A stretch of 64,000 nucleotides of DNA, from assembly GCF_001424875.1 (NCBI RefSeq), contig NZ_LMCT01000067.1:1-64000 (forward strand). Direction: 5' to 3'. Shown here one piece after another: positions 2,322 through 10,526 of this stretch; position 1 is the first letter of the stretch; every line of letters begins with the position of its first letter. The notes beneath the pieces were generated by a model. That model was not told where the DNA came from. It saw only the letters and a list, made by a program, of their open reading frames with translations, and did not search any database. Origin of the DNA: Kitasatospora sp. Root107 (lineage in GTDB: Bacteria; Actinomycetota; Actinomycetes; Streptomycetales; Streptomycetaceae). The position numbers and the translations under genes are program-made.

Positions 2322-3338
2322 ATGGCCTCCACCACCTCCAGGCGCACCTTCCTCGCACTGGCCGCCGTCGGCGCGGCGTCCGCCGCCTGCGGCCGGGCCA
2401 CCGCCACCGGGGGCGGCGGGGGGAGCGAGACCAAGAAGCTTCGCTACCAGGGCTGGGCCGGGCAGGTCACGCTGCCCGAACTGGCCGAGGATCTCGGCTA
2501 CTTCGGCGATGTGAAGCTGGAGTGGGTCGGCAACACGATCAGCGGCCCGCAGGACATCCAGTCGGCGGCCACCGGCCAGACCGACTTCGGCGGCGCGTTC
2601 AACGGCGCGGTGGTGAAGCTGATCGCGGCGGGCGCCCCGGTGAAGGCGGTGATCAGCTACTACGGCGTGGACGAGTTCACCTTCAGCGGTTACTACGTGC
2701 TGGAGGACAGCCCGATCCGGTCGGCCCGGGACCTGCAGGGCAAGAAGGTCGGGATGAACACCCTGGGCGCGCACAGCGAGGCGATGCTCGACATCTACCT
2801 GCAGCGCAACGGGCTCTCGGCCGGCGAGATCGGCAAGGTCGAGCCGATCGTGATCCCACCGGTGAACAGCGAGCAGACGCTGCGTCAGAAGCAGATCGAG
2901 GTCGCGGTCCTGAGCAGCATCCTGCGTGACAAGGCGCTGGCGACGGGCGGGATCCGGTCGCTGTTCAGCGACTACGAGCTGCTCGGCAAGTTCAGCGCGG
3001 GCACCTTCGTGCTGACCAGCCGCTTCCTGAAGCAGAATCCGGAGACCTCCCGGGTCTTCGTCACCGGTGTGGCCAAGGCGATCGAGTGGGCCAGGACCAC
3101 GCCGCGCGAGGAGGTGATCGCCCGCAGCACCGAGATCATCCGGAAGCGGGGACGGAACGAGGACACCGCCACTCTCAAGTACTGGCGCTCGACCGGTGTC
3201 GCGGAGACCGGCGGGCGGATCAACGACCAGGAGTTCCAGCTCTGGATCGACTGGCTGGTCTCGCACGGCGACATCAAGGCGGGCCAGGTCAAGCCTGCCG
3301 ACCTCTACACCAACGAGTTCAACAAGTACGGGGGTTGA
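2322..3338 (+). CDS. ABC transporter substrate-binding lipoprotein (SsuA/TauA/NrtA-like)
   Basis: This 338-residue exported solute receptor probably captures a sulfonate or related organosulfur anion for the two transporter subunits encoded next. The N-terminus has twin arginines (SRRTFLALAAV) and a lipobox-like SAAC with the anchoring Cys near residue 23, then a Gly-rich linker. The mature part reads like the NMT1/SsuA fold: LPELAEDLGYF, then a two-lobe alpha/beta pattern with SGPQDIQSAATGQTDFGG. Substrate identity is inferred from the TauD-like dioxygenase, the leader peptide and the flavin monooxygenase nearby; nitrate or another anion is not excluded by fold alone. AAAGGA lies about ten bases upstream of the ATG. 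Confidence 0.85.
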   Translation: MASTTSRRTFLALAAVGAASAACGRATATGGGGGSETKKLRYQGWAGQVTLPELAEDLGYFGDVKLEWVGNTISGPQDIQSAATGQTDFGGAFNGAVVKLIAAGAPVKAVISYYGVDEFTFSGYYVLEDSPIRSARDLQGKKVGMNTLGAHSEAMLDIYLQRNGLSAGEIGKVEPIVIPPVNSEQTLRQKQIEVAVLSSILRDKALATGGIRSLFSDYELLGKFSAGTFVLTSRFLKQNPETSRVFVTGVAKAIEWARTTPREEVIARSTEIIRKRGRNEDTATLKYWRSTGVAETGGRINDQEFQLWIDWLVSHGDIKAGQVKPADLYTNEFNKYGG

Positions 3339-3342
3339 GAGC

Positions 3343-4149
3343 ATGACTGCCCACATCAGTTTCCACCAGGTGACCAAGACCTTCCCGATCAAGGACGGGA
3401 CCGAGTTCACCGCCCTGGACCGGGTCGATCTGGACGTCGCCGCAGGTGAGTTCGTGGTGATCGTCGGACCGAGCGGCTGCGGGAAGTCGACTCTGCTGGA
3501 TCTGGCAGGTGGGCTGACGAAGCCCACCGAGGGCCGGATCCTGCTGGACGGCCGCCCGGTCACCGGGCCCGGCCTGGACCGCAGCGTGGTGTTCCAGCAG
3601 TACGCGCTGCTGCCGTGGCGGACCGCGCAGGGCAACGTCGAGTTCGGGCTGGAGGCGGTCGGGGTCCCTCGTCGTCAACGGGCGGCGCTGGCCCGGGAGT
3701 ACCTCGATCTGGTCGGTCTGACCGGTTTTGAGGACCGGCATCCGCACGAGCTGTCCGGTGGGATGAAGCAGCGGGTGGCGATCGCCCGCAGCCTGGCGTA
3801 CGACCCGGGGGTGCTGCTGATGGACGAGCCGTTCGCGGCGTTGGACGCGCAGACCAGGGAGCTGCTCCAGGACGAGCTGCTGCGGATCTGGGAGCGCACG
3901 GGCAAGACGGTCGTGTTCATCACGCATGGCATCGAGGAGGCGGTCTACCTCGGCCAGCGGGTGGCGGTGCTGACCTCCCGTCCGGGCCGGGTGAAGGAGG
4001 TGGTCCCGATCGACCTGGGCGAGCGGACCAAGGCACAGGACCTGCGCTCCGCACCGGAGTTCGCCCGGTACCGGCACGAGATCTGGAGCCTCCTGCACGA
4101 CGAGGTCAGCCGGGCGCAGCAGTTGGAGCGAGAGGTGGCCCACGTATGA
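3343..4149 (+). CDS. ABC transporter ATP-binding protein (SsuB/TauB-like)
   Basis: This 268-residue cytoplasmic ATPase energises the importer. Walker A is GPSGCGKST, the Q-loop lies in VVFQQYALLPW, the signature is LSGGMKQR, Walker B is VLLMDEPFAALD, and the switch His is in VFITHGIEEA. These match the nitrate/sulfonate/taurine ATPase class. The start ATG is four bases after the receptor stop, which suggests translational coupling; a longer upstream reading frame has no support. Its 3' end overlaps the permease start by ATGA. Confidence 0.92.
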   Translation: MTAHISFHQVTKTFPIKDGTEFTALDRVDLDVAAGEFVVIVGPSGCGKSTLLDLAGGLTKPTEGRILLDGRPVTGPGLDRSVVFQQYALLPWRTAQGNVEFGLEAVGVPRRQRAALAREYLDLVGLTGFEDRHPHELSGGMKQRVAIARSLAYDPGVLLMDEPFAALDAQTRELLQDELLRIWERTGKTVVFITHGIEEAVYLGQRVAVLTSRPGRVKEVVPIDLGERTKAQDLRSAPEFARYRHEIWSLLHDEVSRAQQLEREVAHV

Positions 4150-5018
4150 GCACCGACCTGAGCACTGACCTCAGCACCGACCTGAGGACTGCACCGTCGA
4201 TCAGCCTGCCGACCCCGAAGACGCTCGCTCCGGCGCGCCGCCCGTCCCGGTTGCCCGGGCTACTGTTCACCGCCGTCACCAAGTCGGTGGCGATCGCGCT
4301 GCTGCTGGTGATCTGGGAGCTGGCGCCGCGCTTCGACCTGGTGGACCGGACCTTCCTGCCCCCGGCCAGCGAGGTGCTGGACGCCTGGATCGGCCTGTTG
4401 AACAGTGGTCAGCTGGCGGTCAACACCTGGGCCAGCCTGGCCCGTTCGCTCAGTGGTTTCGGCCTGGCGGTGGCGATCGGCGTGCCGCTCGGCCTGCTGA
4501 TCGGCTGGTACCGACCGGTGGCCAATCTGCTCAGCCCGTTGCTCGAACTGTTCCGCAACACCGCCGCGTTGGCACTGCTGCCGGTTTTCGTGCTGATCCT
4601 CGGGATCGGGGAGACTTCCAAGATCTCGATCGTGCTGTACGCCTGCCTGTGGCCGATCCTGCTGAACACCATCAGCGCCGTACGCAGCGTCGACCCCACT
4701 CTGCTGCGGCTGGCCCGTTCGCTGGACCTGTCGCCGGTGCGGCTGTTCCAGAAGGTGATCCTGCCCGCCTCGGTGCCGGTGGTGTTCACCGGCATCCGGC
4801 TGGCGGGGGCGGTGTCGATCCTGGTGCTGGTCGCGGCCGAGATGGTCGGTGCGAAGGCCGGCCTGGGCTATCTGATCAACGCTTCGCAGTACAACTTCGC
4901 GATCCCGCAGATGTACGCGGGCATCGTCACCATCTCCGTCATCGGGGTGGCCTTCAACCAGCTGCTGGTCTGGCTCGAACGCCGGTTCACCGCCTGGCGC
5001 GCCCCGCTCAACAGTTGA
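4146..5018 (+). CDS. ABC transporter permease (SsuC/TauC-like)
   Basis: This 290-residue inner-membrane subunit has about six membrane helices. It carries the BPD-transport loop that docks on the ATPase: LARSLDLSPVRLFQKVILPA, followed by SVPVVFTGIRLA. The N-terminus is odd: STDLSTDLSTDL, encoded by imperfect 12-base tandem repeats from 4149, looks variable and dispensable. An internal start after the repeats cannot be ruled out. Together with the previous two genes it forms a complete importer. Confidence 0.9.
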   Translation: MSTDLSTDLSTDLRTAPSISLPTPKTLAPARRPSRLPGLLFTAVTKSVAIALLLVIWELAPRFDLVDRTFLPPASEVLDAWIGLLNSGQLAVNTWASLARSLSGFGLAVAIGVPLGLLIGWYRPVANLLSPLLELFRNTAALALLPVFVLILGIGETSKISIVLYACLWPILLNTISAVRSVDPTLLRLARSLDLSPVRLFQKVILPASVPVVFTGIRLAGAVSILVLVAAEMVGAKAGLGYLINASQYNFAIPQMYAGIVTISVIGVAFNQLLVWLERRFTAWRAPLNS

Positions 5019-5028
5019 GGAGAGAGCC

Positions 5029-6594
5029 GTGCAGGAGCTGAGTACGGACGTGCTGGTGGTCGGGGGCGGCCCGGCCGCCACCTGGGCCGCGCTGGATGCG
5101 GCACGAGCGGGCGTGGACGTGGTCCTCGCCGACAAAGGGTACTGCGGTACCAGCGGAGCAACTGCCGCCGGGGGGACGGGAGTCTGGTACGTCGAGCCCG
5201 AACCGGCGGCGCGGGAGGCCGCGATGGCGAGCCGGGAGGCGCTGGGCGGCTACCTGGCCGGCCGCCGCTGGATGGGCCGGGTACTGGAGCGCACCTACGA
5301 CATCATGAACGAGCTGGCTGACAGCGGGAGTTACCCCTTCCCGACCGGTCCGGACGGGCGGCAGCTGCGCAACGGCCTGCAGGGGCCCGAGTACATGCGC
5401 CGGATGCGGATCAGGATCAGGCGGGCCGGGGTGCGGGTGCTCGACCACAGCCCGGTGACCGAACTGCTCACCGCCGCCGACGGATCGGTGGCGGGAGCGG
5501 CGGGGTACCGGCGCCAGGAGGGCCACGGCTACCGGGTCAGGGCAGGGGCGGTGGTGCTGGCCACCGGGGGCTGTGCCTTCCTCAGCAAGGCGCTCGGCAC
5601 CGACACCAACACCGGGGACGGGGCGCTGTACGCGGCCGAGGTCGGTGCGGAGATGTCGGGGATGGAGTTCTCCAACGCGTACGGCATCGCGCCCGAGCAC
5701 ACCTCGGTGACCAAGACCGCGTTCTACTCCTTCGCCACCTTCTACCAGGAGGACGGCGCGGTGTTGGAGGGCGCGGCCAGCCAGGGCGGGCGCTCGGTGA
5801 TCGCCCGTGCGCTGCTGGAGGGCAAGGTGTACTGCCGTCTGGACCGGGCGGACGAGGCGGCCAGGGCGGCGATGCGGCTGGCCCAGCCGAACTTCTTCCT
5901 CACCTTCGACCGGTTGGGTGTCGACCCCTTCACCGAGCGCTTCGCGGTCACCCTGCTCGCCGAGGGGACGGTACGCGGCACCGGTGGCATCCGGATCACC
6001 GGGGACGACTGCCGCACCACCGTGCCGGGTCTGTACGCGGCGGGCGACGCGGCCACCCGGGAGGAGATCTGCGGTGGCTTCACCGGCGGCGGCAGCCACA
6101 ACGCCGCCTGGGCGATGTCCTCCGGCAGTTGGGCGGGTCGGGGCGCGGCCGGGTACGCGCTGGCGCTGGGGGCCGGCGCGGTCGGCCGCGCCGTCAGCCC
6201 GGCCGGTGGCGCGGGGCTGCGGCCCCTCGGCAACCGGGACGCCGACGCGCGGGAGGTGATCCGGGCGGTGCAGGGAGAGGTGCTCCCGTACGACAAGAAC
6301 TACCTGCGGCACGGCGAGGTGCTGACCGGGGCGCTCGATGTGCTGGACGAGACCTGGGCACGGCTGCGCAGCGGGTTGCACGGCACCGGCCGGGAGGTCG
6401 TGGCGGCCAGGCAGGCCGCCGCGCTGACGGCCAACGCCCGCTGGATGTACCGGTCCGCGCTGGCCAGGACCGAGAGCCGGGGGATGGCCAGGCGGCTGGA
6501 CTTCCCCGAGCAGGATGCGGACCAGCACCACCGGATCGCCTCCGGCGGCCTCGACCGGGTCTGGACCCGGCCGCTGACGGCGGTGGCGGCGTGA
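5029..6594 (+). CDS. FAD-binding oxidoreductase (fumarate reductase/APS reductase alpha-like)
   Basis: This 521-residue flavoprotein has an N-terminal Rossmann motif VLVVGGGPAATWAALDAARAG and CGTSGATAAGG, which hold FAD in the FrdA/SdhA/AprA superfamily. A second FAD-contact region, GDAATREEICGGFTGGGSHN, lies near residues 340-360. The C-terminal helical part contains ARTESRGMARRLDFP, the place where FrdA homologues carry ESRGAH. It overlaps a two-cluster ferredoxin gene by four bases, so the pair probably acts as an AprAB-like electron-transfer enzyme. Its location between an organosulfur importer and a TauD homologue suggests a redox step on sulfite, APS or the imported substrate. That step is inferred, not shown. 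GAGGAGAGAG precedes the GTG start. Confidence 0.8.
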   Translation: MQELSTDVLVVGGGPAATWAALDAARAGVDVVLADKGYCGTSGATAAGGTGVWYVEPEPAAREAAMASREALGGYLAGRRWMGRVLERTYDIMNELADSGSYPFPTGPDGRQLRNGLQGPEYMRRMRIRIRRAGVRVLDHSPVTELLTAADGSVAGAAGYRRQEGHGYRVRAGAVVLATGGCAFLSKALGTDTNTGDGALYAAEVGAEMSGMEFSNAYGIAPEHTSVTKTAFYSFATFYQEDGAVLEGAASQGGRSVIARALLEGKVYCRLDRADEAARAAMRLAQPNFFLTFDRLGVDPFTERFAVTLLAEGTVRGTGGIRITGDDCRTTVPGLYAAGDAATREEICGGFTGGGSHNAAWAMSSGSWAGRGAAGYALALGAGAVGRAVSPAGGAGLRPLGNRDADAREVIRAVQGEVLPYDKNYLRHGEVLTGALDVLDETWARLRSGLHGTGREVVAARQAAALTANARWMYRSALARTESRGMARRLDFPEQDADQHHRIASGGLDRVWTRPLTAVAA

Positions 6595-6926
6595 TCGAAC
6601 TCGTCTCGCCCGAGCGCTGCATCAGCTGCGACAAGTGCATCAAGGTCTGCCCGACGGACGTCTTCGACCGGGGCGCGGACGGTATCCCGGTGATCGCCCG
6701 GCAGAGCGACTGCCAGACCTGCTTCCAGTGCGAGGCCAACTGCCCGACGGACGCCCTGTTCGTCGCCCCGCAGACCCATCCGCAGCCGCCGTTCGACGAG
6801 CTCGCGCTCGCCGAGTCCGGCCTGCTGGGCAGCTACCGGGCCCAGATCGGCTGGGGCCGGGGCCGTACCCCGGGCTCGTTGCGCGCGGTCGGCCCGGCCT
6901 TGGGCACCGCACCGATCACCTCCTGA
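6591..6926 (+). CDS. 2x[4Fe-4S] ferredoxin, AprB-like partner
   Basis: This 111-residue protein carries two classical cluster motifs, CISCDKCIKVCP (about residues 10-21) and CQTCFQCEANCP (about 45-56), and then a roughly 50-residue tail. The GTG start overlaps the flavoprotein stop (GTGA), a strong sign of a fixed stoichiometric partner. It should pass electrons to or from the FAD of the preceding subunit. AprB of APS reductases has the same plan with a C-terminal extension; here the tail is shorter and Gly/Arg-rich. No transmembrane or export signal is visible. Confidence 0.88.
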   Translation: MIELVSPERCISCDKCIKVCPTDVFDRGADGIPVIARQSDCQTCFQCEANCPTDALFVAPQTHPQPPFDELALAESGLLGSYRAQIGWGRGRTPGSLRAVGPALGTAPITS

Positions 6927-6952
6927 ACACCCGTCACGAAAGGACACGAGTC

Positions 6953-7837
6953 ATGAGTCTGGAGATTCACAAGGTCGGTGGCCGGATCGGCGCCGAGATC
7001 ACCGGGGTGGACACCTCGCGGCCGCTGGACGCGGGCACCGTGAGCCGGCTGAACGAGGCGCTGGTGGCGCACAAGGCGCTGTTCTTCCGGGAGCAGCACC
7101 TGGACGACGAAGGCCAGCTCCGGTTCGCCGCCAACTTCGGTGCGCTGACCACCGCCCACCCCACCGTCCCGTCGCTGGCCGGGCAGCCGAGCGTGCTGCC
7201 GGTGGACAGTGAGGACGGTGGCCGGGCCAACCACTGGCACACCGACGTCACCTTCGTCCGTACCCCGCCGAAGGCCAGTACGCTGCGGGCGCTGGTGGTG
7301 CCGCCTTACGGTGGCAACACGCTGATCGCCGACTCCCAGGCCGCGTACCGGGATCTGCCCGAAGCGCTGCGAGAGCTGGCCGACCGGCTGTGGGCGGTGC
7401 ACACCAACGACTACGACTACGCACAGGGCAAGGAGCTGGACGAGGCGGACGCCGAGCGCCGCCGGGTCTTCACGGCCGTCAAGTACCGGACCGCCCACCC
7501 CGTGGTGCGGGTGCACCCGGAGAGCGGTGAACGCGGGCTGTTCGTCGGCGGGTTCGCGCAACGCATTCTCGGTCTGCCGTCCGCCGAGTCGCACGACCTG
7601 CTGCGCAGCCTGCAGGCGTACGTCACCCGGCCGGAGAACGTGGTGCGCTGGCGCTGGTCGGTCGGCGACCTGGTGCTGTTCGACAACCGCTCGACCCAGC
7701 ACTACGCGCCGGACGACTACGACGACCTGCCGCGCCGGCTGCACCGGGTGACGGTGGCGGGGGACGTTCCGGTCGGGGTGAGCGGGGAGTCCAGCTACCT
7801 GATCGAGGGGGACGAGGCTCCGCACTACACCTCCTAG
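6953..7837 (+). CDS. TauD/TfdA-family Fe(II)/2-oxoglutarate dioxygenase
   Basis: This 294-residue enzyme of taurine-dioxygenase length would hydroxylate the carbon next to a sulfonate (or sulfate ester), releasing sulfite. The iron triad is visible: H96-T-D98 in NHWHTDVTF and H250 in DNRSTQHYAPDD. R265 in RRLHRVTVAG sits where TauD binds 2-oxoglutarate. An AAAGGA-like site lies in the 26-base gap after the ferredoxin gene. It is the last gene of the operon, followed by a 22-bp terminator stem. The exact substrate cannot be read from sequence. Confidence 0.88.
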   Translation: MSLEIHKVGGRIGAEITGVDTSRPLDAGTVSRLNEALVAHKALFFREQHLDDEGQLRFAANFGALTTAHPTVPSLAGQPSVLPVDSEDGGRANHWHTDVTFVRTPPKASTLRALVVPPYGGNTLIADSQAAYRDLPEALRELADRLWAVHTNDYDYAQGKELDEADAERRRVFTAVKYRTAHPVVRVHPESGERGLFVGGFAQRILGLPSAESHDLLRSLQAYVTRPENVVRWRWSVGDLVLFDNRSTQHYAPDDYDDLPRRLHRVTVAGDVPVGVSGESSYLIEGDEAPHYTS

Positions 7838-7838
7838 T

Positions 7839-7886
7839 CAACGCCGAAGGGGCGCCCACCAACCGGTGGGCGCCCCTTCGGCGTTG
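7839..7886. terminator. Bidirectional terminator between tauD-like and LLM genes
   Basis: A perfect 22-bp stem (7839-7860 with 7865-7886) has an AACC loop. It sits just after the dioxygenase stop and just before the end of the convergent monooxygenase gene, so it can serve both. Confidence 0.85.
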
Positions 7887-7895
7887 GTCAGGAGG

Positions 7896-9218
7896 TCAGG
7901 AGAACCGGCCGGCCGGGCGGGGCAGGCCGTAGTGCTCGCGCAGGGTGCGGCCGGTGTAGCCCTCGCGGAACAGGCCGCGCTTGCGCAGGATCGGCAGCAC
8001 CTGCTCGACGAAGTCGGTCAGGCCGTCGGGGAGGATCGGCGGCATGATGTTGAAGCCGTCGGCGGCGCCCTGGGTGAACCAGGTCTCGATGTGGTCGGCG
8101 AGCTGCTCGGGGGTGCCGACGACCACCTGGTGGCCGCGTCCGCCGCCGAGCCGGCCGACCAGCTGACGCAGGGTCAGCCGGTCGCGTTCGGCCAGGTCGC
8201 GGATCAGTTCGAACCGGCTCTTGGCGCCGTTGATCTCGGTCACCGGCGGCAGCGGCGGCAGCGGTTCGTCCAGCGGGTGGTCGGTCAGGTCGATGCCGAG
8301 CACGGTGGAGAGCACGCCCACCGAGCGGGCGGGGTTGATGAGGTCGTCCAGCTCGCGGTCCAGGCGGTGGGCCTCCTCCTCGGTGGAGCCGAGCACCGGC
8401 ACCACCCCGGGCAGCACCACGACCTGTTCGGGGGCCCGGCCGAAGCCGGCGGCCTGCCGCTTGAGGTCGGCGTAGAAGGACTGCCCTTCGGCCAGCGTCT
8501 GCTGCGCGGTGAACACCGCCTCGGCCCAACGGGCGGCGAAGGCCCGGCCGTTGTCGGAGGAGCCGGCCTGCACCAGCAGCGGGTGGCCCTGCGGCGGGCG
8601 GGGGATGTTCAGCGGGCCGCGGACCTGGAAGTGCTCGCCGACGTGGTCGATCTCGTGCACCCGGCCGGCGTCGGCGAAGGCGCCGGTGGCCCGGTCCAGG
8701 GTGAGTGCGCCGTCCTCCCAGCTGTCCCAGAGCGCGGTGACCACGTCGAGGAACTCGGCGGCCCGCTGGTAGCGGACGGCGTGCTCCTGGTTGGCGGAGC
8801 GGCTGAAGTTCTGCGCGGACCGCTCCCCGGCCGAGGTGACGATGTTCCAGCCCGCCCGGCCGTGGCTGATGTGGTCCAGCGAGGCGAACTGCCGGGCCAG
8901 GTTGTAAGGCTCGCTGAAGCCGGTGGAGACGGTGCCGATCAGGCCGATCCGCTCGGTCACCACGGCCAGCGCGGTGAGCAGGGTGAACGGTTCGAAGTGG
9001 CTGATCAGGCCCCAGCCGCCGTCCGAGCGGGCCTCCACGCCGTCGGCCAGGAAGACCGAGTCGAAGGAGGCCGCCTCGGCGGTCTGCGCCAGCCGCTGGA
9101 AGTGCGCGATGTCGGCGGCCTGGTGCGGGTCGGTGCGCGGGTGACGCCAGGCCGCCTCGTGGTGGCCGACGCCCATCAGGAAGAGGTTGAAGTGCAGTTG
9201 CCGGTCGTCAGTGGGCAT
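7896..9218 (-). CDS. LLM-class FMN-dependent monooxygenase (NtaA/SnaA/DszA family)
   Basis: This 440-residue bacterial-luciferase-like enzyme uses FMNH2 supplied by a separate reductase. Recognisable stretches are LHFNLFLMGVGHHEAAWRHP at the N-terminus, SFDSVFLADG, the active-site strand SHGRAGWNIVTS, and PQGHPLLVQAGSS. Members cleave C-S or C-N bonds in sulfones, alkanesulfonates and chelators. Its position facing the organosulfur operon fits use of a related sulfur source, but it is not part of that transcript. The ATG at 9218 is preferred over an upstream in-frame extension because homologues begin at this point. A GGGGATTGTCCCC palindrome (9248-9260) lies 30 bases upstream. Confidence 0.88.
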   Translation of the reverse strand: MPTDDRQLHFNLFLMGVGHHEAAWRHPRTDPHQAADIAHFQRLAQTAEAASFDSVFLADGVEARSDGGWGLISHFEPFTLLTALAVVTERIGLIGTVSTGFSEPYNLARQFASLDHISHGRAGWNIVTSAGERSAQNFSRSANQEHAVRYQRAAEFLDVVTALWDSWEDGALTLDRATGAFADAGRVHEIDHVGEHFQVRGPLNIPRPPQGHPLLVQAGSSDNGRAFAARWAEAVFTAQQTLAEGQSFYADLKRQAAGFGRAPEQVVVLPGVVPVLGSTEEEAHRLDRELDDLINPARSVGVLSTVLGIDLTDHPLDEPLPPLPPVTEINGAKSRFELIRDLAERDRLTLRQLVGRLGGGRGHQVVVGTPEQLADHIETWFTQGAADGFNIMPPILPDGLTDFVEQVLPILRKRGLFREGYTGRTLREHYGLPRPAGRFS

Positions 9219-9323: not shown

Positions 9324-10526
9324 TCACGAGCTGCGCGCGGTGCGCAGCTCCATCGGCCGCTGGTACGCGCTGTCCAGTACGCCCGCGCAGGCCGCCACGG
9401 CCAGCACGTCCGGCCCGAACGAGGCGGCCGTCACCAGCTGCCCGGGCTCCACCGCGCCGTGCCGGCCGACCTGTTCGTACAGGTAGCCGGCCAGCTCCGG
9501 ACGGACCGTCAACCCGGCCTCGCTGACCACCAGGACCTCGGGGTTGAGCACGTTGAGCAGCAGCGCGGCGGCCGGTGCGGCCAGCCGGAGCCGTTCCTTG
9601 ATCAGTGCCACGGCCCGCTCGTCGCCGGTCCGGGTCAGGGCCAGCAGCAGTTCGAAGTCCGGTGCGGGGATGAGGCCTTGGGCGTGCGCGCGGCGGGCGA
9701 CGGTGCGTTCGGAGACGGTGGCCTGGAGGCAGCCGGTCCGGCCGCAGATGCAGGGCTCGGTGGAGCCGGGTACGGGCAGGTGGCCGACGTTGCCGGCCCG
9801 GGAGCGGCGGCCGCGCAGCACGGCGCCGCCGGTGGCGAAGGCGGCGTCGACGACGTTGCCGACGAAGAGCTGGACGAGTTCGGTCGAGCCGCGGCCGGCG
9901 CCGAACAGCAGCTCGGCCACGGCCAGCGCCCGGGCGTGGCTGTCGACGTGTACGGGTAGCCGGGTGGCGCGGGCGAGTTCGGCCCGGACGGGGACGTCCC
10001 GCCAGCCGAGCGGGCCGTGCTCGACCACGGTGCCGCGTTCGGAGTCGACCCAGCCGCCGGTGACCACCCCGAGGCCGAGCAGCGAGCGTCCGGCGGCCCG
10101 GCGGGCCAGGAAGCCCGGCAGGTGGTCGCGGACGGTGGCGAGCACGGTGGTGGCGTCGCCCCGGCGGGGCAGCCGCTCGTGCGCGACCACCCGGCCGCGC
10201 AGATCGAGCAGCGCGAAGGTGAGGTACGGGACGCCGATGTGCACGCCGCAGGCGAGGTGGTGGCGATTGTCCACGTCGAGCGGCAGCTGGGGGCGGCCGG
10301 CCCGGGGCGGTCCGTCCGGCGCGGGCAGTTCGCGGACCAGGCCGAGGCCGATCAGGTCGGCGGTGTGCCGGGAGACCGCCGCCGGGCTGAGACCGGTGGC
10401 CCGTCCGACGGCGCCCCGGGCCAGCGGCCCGGCGGCCAGTACGGCGCGCAGTACCGCCCCGGCGCCGCCGCCCTCGGCGGGCTGTGGCGCCCGGGCCGGC
10501 GCGGGGGGAGCGACCAGAGAGAGCAT
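9324..10526 (-). CDS. ROK-family transcriptional regulator/sugar kinase homologue
   Basis: This 400-residue protein has an N-terminal winged helix (about residues 22-80: GRATGLSPAAVSRHTADLIGLGLV), followed by an ASKHA fold. The ROK zinc motif is CICGRTGCLQATVS near residue 260. The usual catalytic DxGxT-like segment is replaced by VDNRHHLACGVHIG, which favours a regulator over a kinase. It is 105 bases upstream of, and on the same strand as, the flavin monooxygenase gene, and divergent from kdpD. It may control the monooxygenase. GGGAGC precedes the ATG. A much longer in-frame extension upstream is shadow of kdpD. Confidence 0.85.
   Translation of the reverse strand: MLSLVAPPAPARAPQPAEGGGAGAVLRAVLAAGPLARGAVGRATGLSPAAVSRHTADLIGLGLVRELPAPDGPPRAGRPQLPLDVDNRHHLACGVHIGVPYLTFALLDLRGRVVAHERLPRRGDATTVLATVRDHLPGFLARRAAGRSLLGLGVVTGGWVDSERGTVVEHGPLGWRDVPVRAELARATRLPVHVDSHARALAVAELLFGAGRGSTELVQLFVGNVVDAAFATGGAVLRGRRSRAGNVGHLPVPGSTEPCICGRTGCLQATVSERTVARRAHAQGLIPAPDFELLLALTRTGDERAVALIKERLRLAAPAAALLLNVLNPEVLVVSEAGLTVRPELAGYLYEQVGRHGAVEPGQLVTAASFGPDVLAVAACAGVLDSAYQRPMELRTARSS

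Follow-up and report, generated by a model that had tools for sequence, protein, structure and literature searches.

In the accessible portions of the literature, asfA serves as a marker gene for soil bacteria that free sulfur from aromatic sulfonates, and AsfA is presented solely as a component of an electron-transfer or multicomponent monooxygenase system. According to excerpts of one review, the asfRABC genes of Pseudomonas putida S-313 comprise a binding protein, an ATP-binding cassette (ABC) transporter, a reductase/ferredoxin system and a LysR regulator; transposon mutants in asfA lost the use of aromatic sulfonates and kept that of aliphatic ones, and the strain is described as requiring ssu plus asf (PMC4267179). 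In Cupriavidus metallidurans CH34, the partial text of a second source gives AsfA and AsfB as Rmet_4334/5 and names the genes asfRAB (PMC2864759). Here, a cluster with an adjacent AsfA/AsfB pair is described from Kitasatospora sp. Root107, in a stretch of 64,000 nucleotides (the window; contig NZ_LMCT01000067.1, positions 1 to 64,000). Six genes on the forward strand (2322-7837) run from an importer through the flavoprotein AsfA and the ferredoxin AsfB to a dioxygenase, as identified from open reading frames and domain searches.

A sequence-only reading of this locus had proposed an undescribed organosulfur pathway built around an AprAB-like enzyme. The cluster is instead known in kind as Asf, reported for aromatic sulfonates; this variant has a nearby ROK gene instead of the LysR gene, and its oxygenases are different. 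Its interest lies in the unsolved chemistry of AsfAB.

An Asf-type pair and its conserved neighbourhood

The flavoprotein of the window (5029..6594, forward strand) is an AsfA-family protein of 521 amino acids with a succinate dehydrogenase/fumarate reductase (SDH/FRD) fold and matches to Pfam FAD_binding_2 and Succ_DH_flav_C. Its reading frame overlaps by 4 bp (GTGA) that of an AsfB-family 2x[4Fe-4S] ferredoxin of 111 amino acids with two CxxCxxCxxxCP motifs (6591..6926, forward strand). The window AsfA is 63% identical over 515 amino acids to a protein encoded on CHR2 of C. metallidurans CH34, and the window AsfB is 53% identical over 91 amino acids to that protein's partner. CHR2 encodes a single strong homologue of the flavoprotein, at 928,267-929,817 (905 bits), with the next match at 43.5 bits. 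Because gene names are missing from that part of the record, the match was placed by gene order, fitting the six TauD genes found on CHR2 to the six locus tags that the paper gives for tauD. One orientation and rotation fitted with a root-mean-square error of 4.7 genes, and the other 11 gave 88.5 or more. The match maps to Rmet_4338.5-4339.9, 4-6 gene numbers from the published AsfA/AsfB, by an inferential mapping whose leave-one-out errors are 3-11 genes. The asfA carriers named in the literature, to the extent that it was accessible, include Rhodococcus, Williamsia and Cupriavidus, and all three genera are also among the flavoprotein matches found here.

The neighbourhood of the pair is conserved. 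Counts were taken over the best 80 of at least 584 confirmed candidates, that is, the named loci nearest to the window protein (19 of the 80 shorter than 19 kb), and compared with 20 control loci around SdhA-type genes (five shorter than 16 kb). AsfB lies directly after AsfA in 77 of the 80 loci and in none of the controls, and an ABC ATPase and permease lie within about 9 kb of AsfA in 53, again with no control showing both (one has the ATPase alone). A binding protein of the window type is found near AsfA in 38/80 loci against 0/20 controls. A monooxygenase occurs in 40 loci (34 under a stricter identity rule) and a dioxygenase in 34 (31 under the stricter rule), each against 0/20 controls, and these oxygenase shares are upper estimates because the 80 loci were chosen for closeness to the window. 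We take the importer, AsfA and AsfB to be the core of the cluster and the oxygenases to be exchangeable. The organosulfur theme of the sequence-only reading is supported, as is its single operon of importer and oxygenase.

The three loci that have no AsfB directly downstream are all cyanobacterial (L106, L117 and L118); in L118 an AsfB is found at another place within the locus. Two AsfA genes share a single locus in 11/80 cases (L077, L078, L079, L080, L081, L092, L102, L115, L120, L121 and L123). The Paenibacillus locus L044, in addition to these 11, also has two AsfA genes; in both loci that were looked at, L044 and L079, a binding-protein gene sits between the two AsfAB pairs.

All seven genes, the six of the operon and the facing monooxygenase, are found together in four other fetched congeneric genomes, at 75.6-90.7% identity per gene. 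The layout is not due to chance, since it recurs in these four congeners and elements of it turn up near the flavoprotein in distantly related bacteria. In one of the four, G005 (L053:7915-9030), AsfA is missing about 150 internal residues in frame with the remaining cluster present, which reflects either genuine gene decay or an error of assembly.

Among named relatives of the flavoprotein, the one listed first (85%) belongs to Kitasatospora indigofera. Relatives in a plasmid collection, at 52-66% in the 40 of 60 records listed, come from rhizobia, Azospirillum, Cupriavidus, Nocardia, Paenibacillus and Nostoc. In ten fetched loci from this collection the ferredoxin adjoins the flavoprotein in all ten, with ABC genes in eight, a monooxygenase in three and a dioxygenase in one. 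Pairs of the asf type, with varying oxygenases and neighbours, occur in actinobacteria, cyanobacteria, rhizobia and Paenibacillus. Within genomes AsfA is patchy: it was found in 10/70 genomes of the genus, in 4/396 Actinomycetota including this one, and in 2/385 Alphaproteobacteria including the genome used as centre. These prevalences are possibly underestimated, with at most 21 candidates scored per genome in the genus and at most three in the Actinomycetota and Alphaproteobacteria. In one scan of viral contigs no relative of the flavoprotein was found, and viral carriage is not supported.

AsfB carries a conserved tail with the motif G-x-Y-R-xxx-G-W, present in 85/85 AsfB from loci on genome contigs and in 11/13 sequences of alignment A2. 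Because the Cys motifs were the basis for selecting those 85 AsfB, it is only the count for the tail that carries information.

Fold, active-site residues and phylogeny of AsfA

A structure model of AsfA (mean predicted local distance difference test 83, predicted template modelling score 0.88) aligned with FrdA over residues 1-517 (Z 37-38.5). It also aligned near end to end with NadB (Z 36), 3'-phosphoadenylyl sulfate (PAPS) reductase (34.8) and AprA (27-29); folds missing from the structure-match lists were not taken as evidence of absence. Given these near end-to-end alignments, the AsfA chain is made up of flavin adenine dinucleotide (FAD), capping and helical domains, with no sign of a separate domain for NAD(P)H. 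Among NCBIfam models TfrA scored best (88 bits), followed by other SDH/FRD and NadB models, PRK13800 (70 bits) and AprA (45 bits), with all of these scores below the model cut-offs.

The FrdA and AprA residues compared here have catalytic roles in those enzymes. In the sequence alignment AsfA has Gly43 where FrdA has the FAD-linking His, and the FAD of AsfA is predicted to be non-covalently bound. The columns of FrdA H233, E246, H356 and R391 (numbers count Met1) hold Tyr218, Lys229, Glu312 and a gap, respectively, in 19/19 AsfA, and the R288 column retains Arg in 16 of the 19. Ten residues are invariant in all 32 aligned AsfA: Trp53, Tyr54, Cys182, Thr228, Lys229, Glu312, Arg316, Cys328, Arg344 and Glu345. 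An SDH/FRD/NadB-type dicarboxylate enzyme was considered as well and rejected on the residues in the FrdA site columns, despite being the source of the best structural matches.

In a tree of 43 rows, AsfA forms its own group (19 rows, support 100/100, branch length 2.66), separate from an SDH/FRD/NadB group (9 rows, 100/96) and from a group of AprA, PAPS reductase and PRK13800/PRK08275 (15 rows, 99/98). The rows were drawn from 14/32 sequences of alignment A3, 5/14 of alignment A1 and 8/10 AprA loci, and other FAD frames (L015, L016, L017, L019 and L024) and repeats were omitted. AsfA is inside neither the AprA/PAPS reductase group nor the SDH/FRD/NadB group; its nearest kin cannot be named because the root is unknown, long branches meet and eight rows are odd in composition. 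The phylogeny argues against the AprAB-like assignment that had been proposed. The outcome named as refuting the sequence-only reading, a grouping with non-sulfur dehydrogenases together with a neighbourhood that is not conserved, is not seen either, as AsfA lies outside SDH/FRD/NadB too and its neighbourhood is conserved.

These results bear on the proposal that AsfAB, like AprAB or PAPS reductase, carries out a redox reaction dedicated to sulfite or adenylyl sulfate (APS). The two-subunit layout is the same, the fold is common to AsfA, AprA and PAPS reductase, there are weak matches to the latter two, and the His for covalent FAD is missing in both groups. The AprA His column holds Ser in 19/19 AsfA and Lys in PAPS reductase; His357 stands in the next column in 16/19 AsfA rows and, judging from the alignment, may be equivalent to the AprA active-site His. 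However, AsfA sits on its own branch outside the AprA, PAPS reductase and PRK13800 clade, and the Asn, Arg and Lys typical of AprA, each of which PAPS reductase retains, are absent from 19/19, 18/19 and 19/19 AsfA rows. Most of the SDH-type and AprA-type residues examined are lost in AsfA. With the tree and three columns against it and one His possibly shared, an AprAB-type APS/sulfite enzyme was rejected as a candidate, and such a step appears very improbable. A literature search, with the primary papers of Vermeij 1999 and Schmalenberger and Kertesz 2007 outside its reach, found AsfA nowhere described as AprA- or fumarate-reductase-like.

Importer, oxygenases and a proposed role for AsfAB

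The genes, domains and coordinates read at the outset are real, as is an operon facing a flavin monooxygenase; the two units are convergent, tail to tail. The operon opens with an ABC substrate-binding protein of the NMT1/SsuA superfamily (2322..3338, forward strand; Pfam NMT1 72 bits). It scores 62 bits with the SsuA model TIGR01728, under the cut-off of 163.5, its nearest PDB entry is SsuA at a weak 38 bits, and by eye it bears an RR-containing lipoprotein-type signal. An ABC ATPase of the TauB/NrtD/SsuB group follows (3343..4149, forward strand; TauB model NF008421 262 bits, under the cut-off of 357), its frame sharing 4 bp in a start/stop overlap with that of a single permease of the TauC/SsuC group (4146..5018, forward strand; BPD_transp_1). 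The permease scores 144 bits with SaoP, 134 with TauC and 115 with SsuC, each under its cut-off.

Downstream of AsfB, the last gene of the operon encodes an Fe(II)/2-oxoglutarate dioxygenase of the TauD/TfdA fold (6953..7837, forward strand), with phmmer scores of 324 bits to AtsK, 292 to Rv3406 and 184 to E. coli TauD. By these scores it appears to be of the AtsK/Rv3406 sulfate-ester type rather than a taurine dioxygenase proper, and because it is nearer to AtsK/Rv3406 than to TauD, its substrate could equally well be an alkyl sulfate ester or a sulfonate. The facing gene (7896..9218, minus strand) encodes an NtaA/DmoA-family monooxygenase of the luciferase fold, dependent on flavin mononucleotide (FMN), that scores 569 bits with TIGR03860 (cut-off 280) and fails the SsuD model TIGR03565 (60 bits against 518). 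Its nearest solved relatives are YtnJ/MoxC, nitrilotriacetate (NTA) monooxygenase and DszA, enzymes acting on C-S or C-N compounds.

On balance, and by a modest degree, we favour a sulfur-scavenging Asf-type cluster in which AsfAB acts on a small molecule at the FAD, with substrates and electron direction proposed as follows. The SsuABC-like importer would take up organosulfonates, sulfate esters or both. The NtaA/DmoA-type monooxygenase, using FMNH2, and the AtsK-type dioxygenase would cleave C-S or S-O bonds, and the sulfite or sulfate freed would enter cysteine synthesis. Substrates beyond the reach of the oxygenases alone would require an AsfAB-dependent step. AsfA and AsfB would form a two-subunit enzyme of succinate-dehydrogenase architecture, in which an imported sulfonate or a desulfonation intermediate might bind at the FAD beneath the capping domain of AsfA, electrons would move between the FAD and the two [4Fe-4S] clusters of AsfB, and AsfB could dock via its conserved tail. 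The reading of AsfAB as acting on a substrate comes from the SDH-type domains of AsfA, among which no distinct NAD(P)H domain stands out; the invariance of Lys229, Glu312, Arg316, Cys182 and Cys328 and the conserved AsfB tail also speak for it. A more specific version is offered tentatively and is less likely than not: instead of serving as an electron-transfer accessory, AsfAB may itself act on the substrate when aromatic sulfonates are desulfonated. It would then represent a third branch of the SDH/AprA superfamily, its active site (Lys229, Glu312, Arg316, Cys182 and Cys328) being distinct from the others and performing redox chemistry on the sulfonated ring or sulfonyl group, with a general flavin monooxygenase finishing the reaction.

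Domains of the SDH type typically carry out redox chemistry on a small organic or sulfur compound, and this bears on the main rival that remains. Within the same Asf cluster, AsfAB could be a mere electron relay, passing electrons from a cell reductant through AsfA and AsfB to a flavin or to the monooxygenase. This is the published view of AsfAB in the portions of the literature available, it would suit the monooxygenase lying near AsfA in 40 of the 80 loci, and a Pfam Pyr_redox_2 match (42 bits, residues 7-196) spans the FAD part of AsfA. Against a relay stand the SDH-type domains that account for the AsfA chain and the strictly conserved charged residues aligned with the FrdA dicarboxylate site, as well as the 24/61 full-length loci with neither such a monooxygenase nor a dioxygenase in the flank. 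A pure relay is a real, though doubtful, possibility.

Another alternative concerns the fate of the carbon skeleton. SsuD, TauD and AtsK each release sulfur alone as oxygenases. If the oxygenases of the window likewise sufficed for sulfur release, AsfAB might oxidise or reduce the carbon product left after desulfonation (a phenol, aldehyde or ketone), in keeping with a superfamily made up mostly of organic-substrate dehydrogenases and reductases. However, since asfA mutants are reported, in the excerpts available, to lose aromatic sulfonates, AsfA appears to be required for freeing the sulfur, beyond any part in disposing of the carbon, and a step confined to the carbon product is improbable.

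Several observations weigh against the reading we favour, a substrate-acting pair in an Asf-type cluster. The Pyr_redox_2 match just mentioned and the loci with no oxygenase in the flank count here too, as does the inflation of the counts over the 80 loci nearest to the window, and AsfAB is described as an electron-transfer (reductase/ferredoxin) system in the available part of the source (PMC4267179). The Asf assignment rests on the CH34 pair, the S-313 AsfA sequence being outside the comparison. Among the genes examined in the 15.5-kb CH34 locus there is no LysR gene, at odds with the name asfRAB, and of 32 LysR helix-turn-helix matches in the Kitasatospora genome (150 of 216 first-look candidates scored) none lies on the window's contig. 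Finally, no SsuD above the model cut-off was found in the genome, the best reaching 200 of 518 bits, so this genome does not merely repeat the S-313 combination of asf with ssu.

The genes examined beside the cluster, within 1-14 kb, encode a sigma factor, one protein with no Pfam match, a ROK-family regulator with a winged helix (9324..10526, minus strand; Pfam ROK 121 bits, MarR_2 33 bits) and, beyond it, KdpD and then a response regulator. A ROK gene is found near AsfA in 16/94 loci against 0/20 controls, and the ROK protein is a candidate regulator of the cluster, possibly a replacement for the LysR protein AsfR. Between the convergent units lies an inverted repeat (7829..7896) whose 32-nt arms (7829-7860 and 7865-7896) are 91% complementary, and which may be a bidirectional terminator; it was not among the output of a consensus terminator scan. 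A sigma-70 promoter scan found no promoter.

Comparison with related systems

The host genome (8.17 Mb in 73 contigs) also contains a second flavoprotein/importer cluster. On contig C12, at about 339,265-345,900 (L049:9266-15901), a GntR gene is accompanied by a ferredoxin frame, a binding protein, a permease, an ATPase and an 886-amino-acid flavoprotein. The latter, which has HEAT repeats, scores 1531 bits with PRK13800 (cut-off 1196). The PRK13800/PRK08275 flavoproteins, annotated as 'fumarate reductase', resemble AsfA in also occurring with a ferredoxin and an SsuABC-type importer. Unlike AsfA, to which they are 29-34% identical, they fall with AprA and PAPS reductase in the tree (99/98); the PRK13800-type rows keep the AprA Asn and Lys and have Leu at the AprA Arg in 6/6. 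The description 'AprAB-like pair with SsuABC' fits the C12 cluster better than the window pair. If an organosulfur system of the AprA kind is sought, the C12 cluster is the stronger candidate. A PRK13800 flavoprotein was found in 19/70 genomes of the genus; both flavoproteins occur in 5/10 AsfA genomes, and this linkage within the genus is not significant (hypergeometric p 0.09). Separately, a PRK13800/PRK08275-type flavoprotein was seen in the AsfA flank of three of the 80 loci (L057, L062 and L110; two Streptomyces and one Anabaena).

AprAB and the PAPS reductase of Methanothermococcus (8a8o) share with AsfAB the fold of the large subunit, a small 2x[4Fe-4S] partner, the lack of a covalent-FAD His and possibly one active-site His, whereas their clade is separate and their Asn, Arg and Lys are not kept in AsfA. 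FrdA, SdhA and NadB give the top structural matches (Z 36-38.5) and share the Arg of the FrdA R288 column with most AsfA; in contrast, AsfA has no FAD-linking His, has other residues at H233, E246, H356 and R391, and lies in a clade of its own.

In the searched passages of papers on sulfur-limited actinobacteria and on P. aeruginosa, the flavoprotein-ferredoxin pair is not mentioned, and the available parts of two further papers hold nothing on the mechanism of AsfAB (PMC10441942; PMC4070957). Now that AsfA has a branch of its own in the SDH/AprA superfamily, defined invariant residues and a ferredoxin dedicated to it, the function of AsfA becomes a testable question of enzymology. The closest described systems are asfRABC of S-313 and AsfAB of CH34, which have in common with the window an adjacent AsfA and AsfB, a binding protein, an ABC importer and a sulfonate context. 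Compared with asfRABC, the window has a ROK gene nearby rather than a LysR gene, in a genome with no SsuD above the cut-off, and its cluster contains an AtsK-type dioxygenase and an NtaA/DmoA-type monooxygenase.

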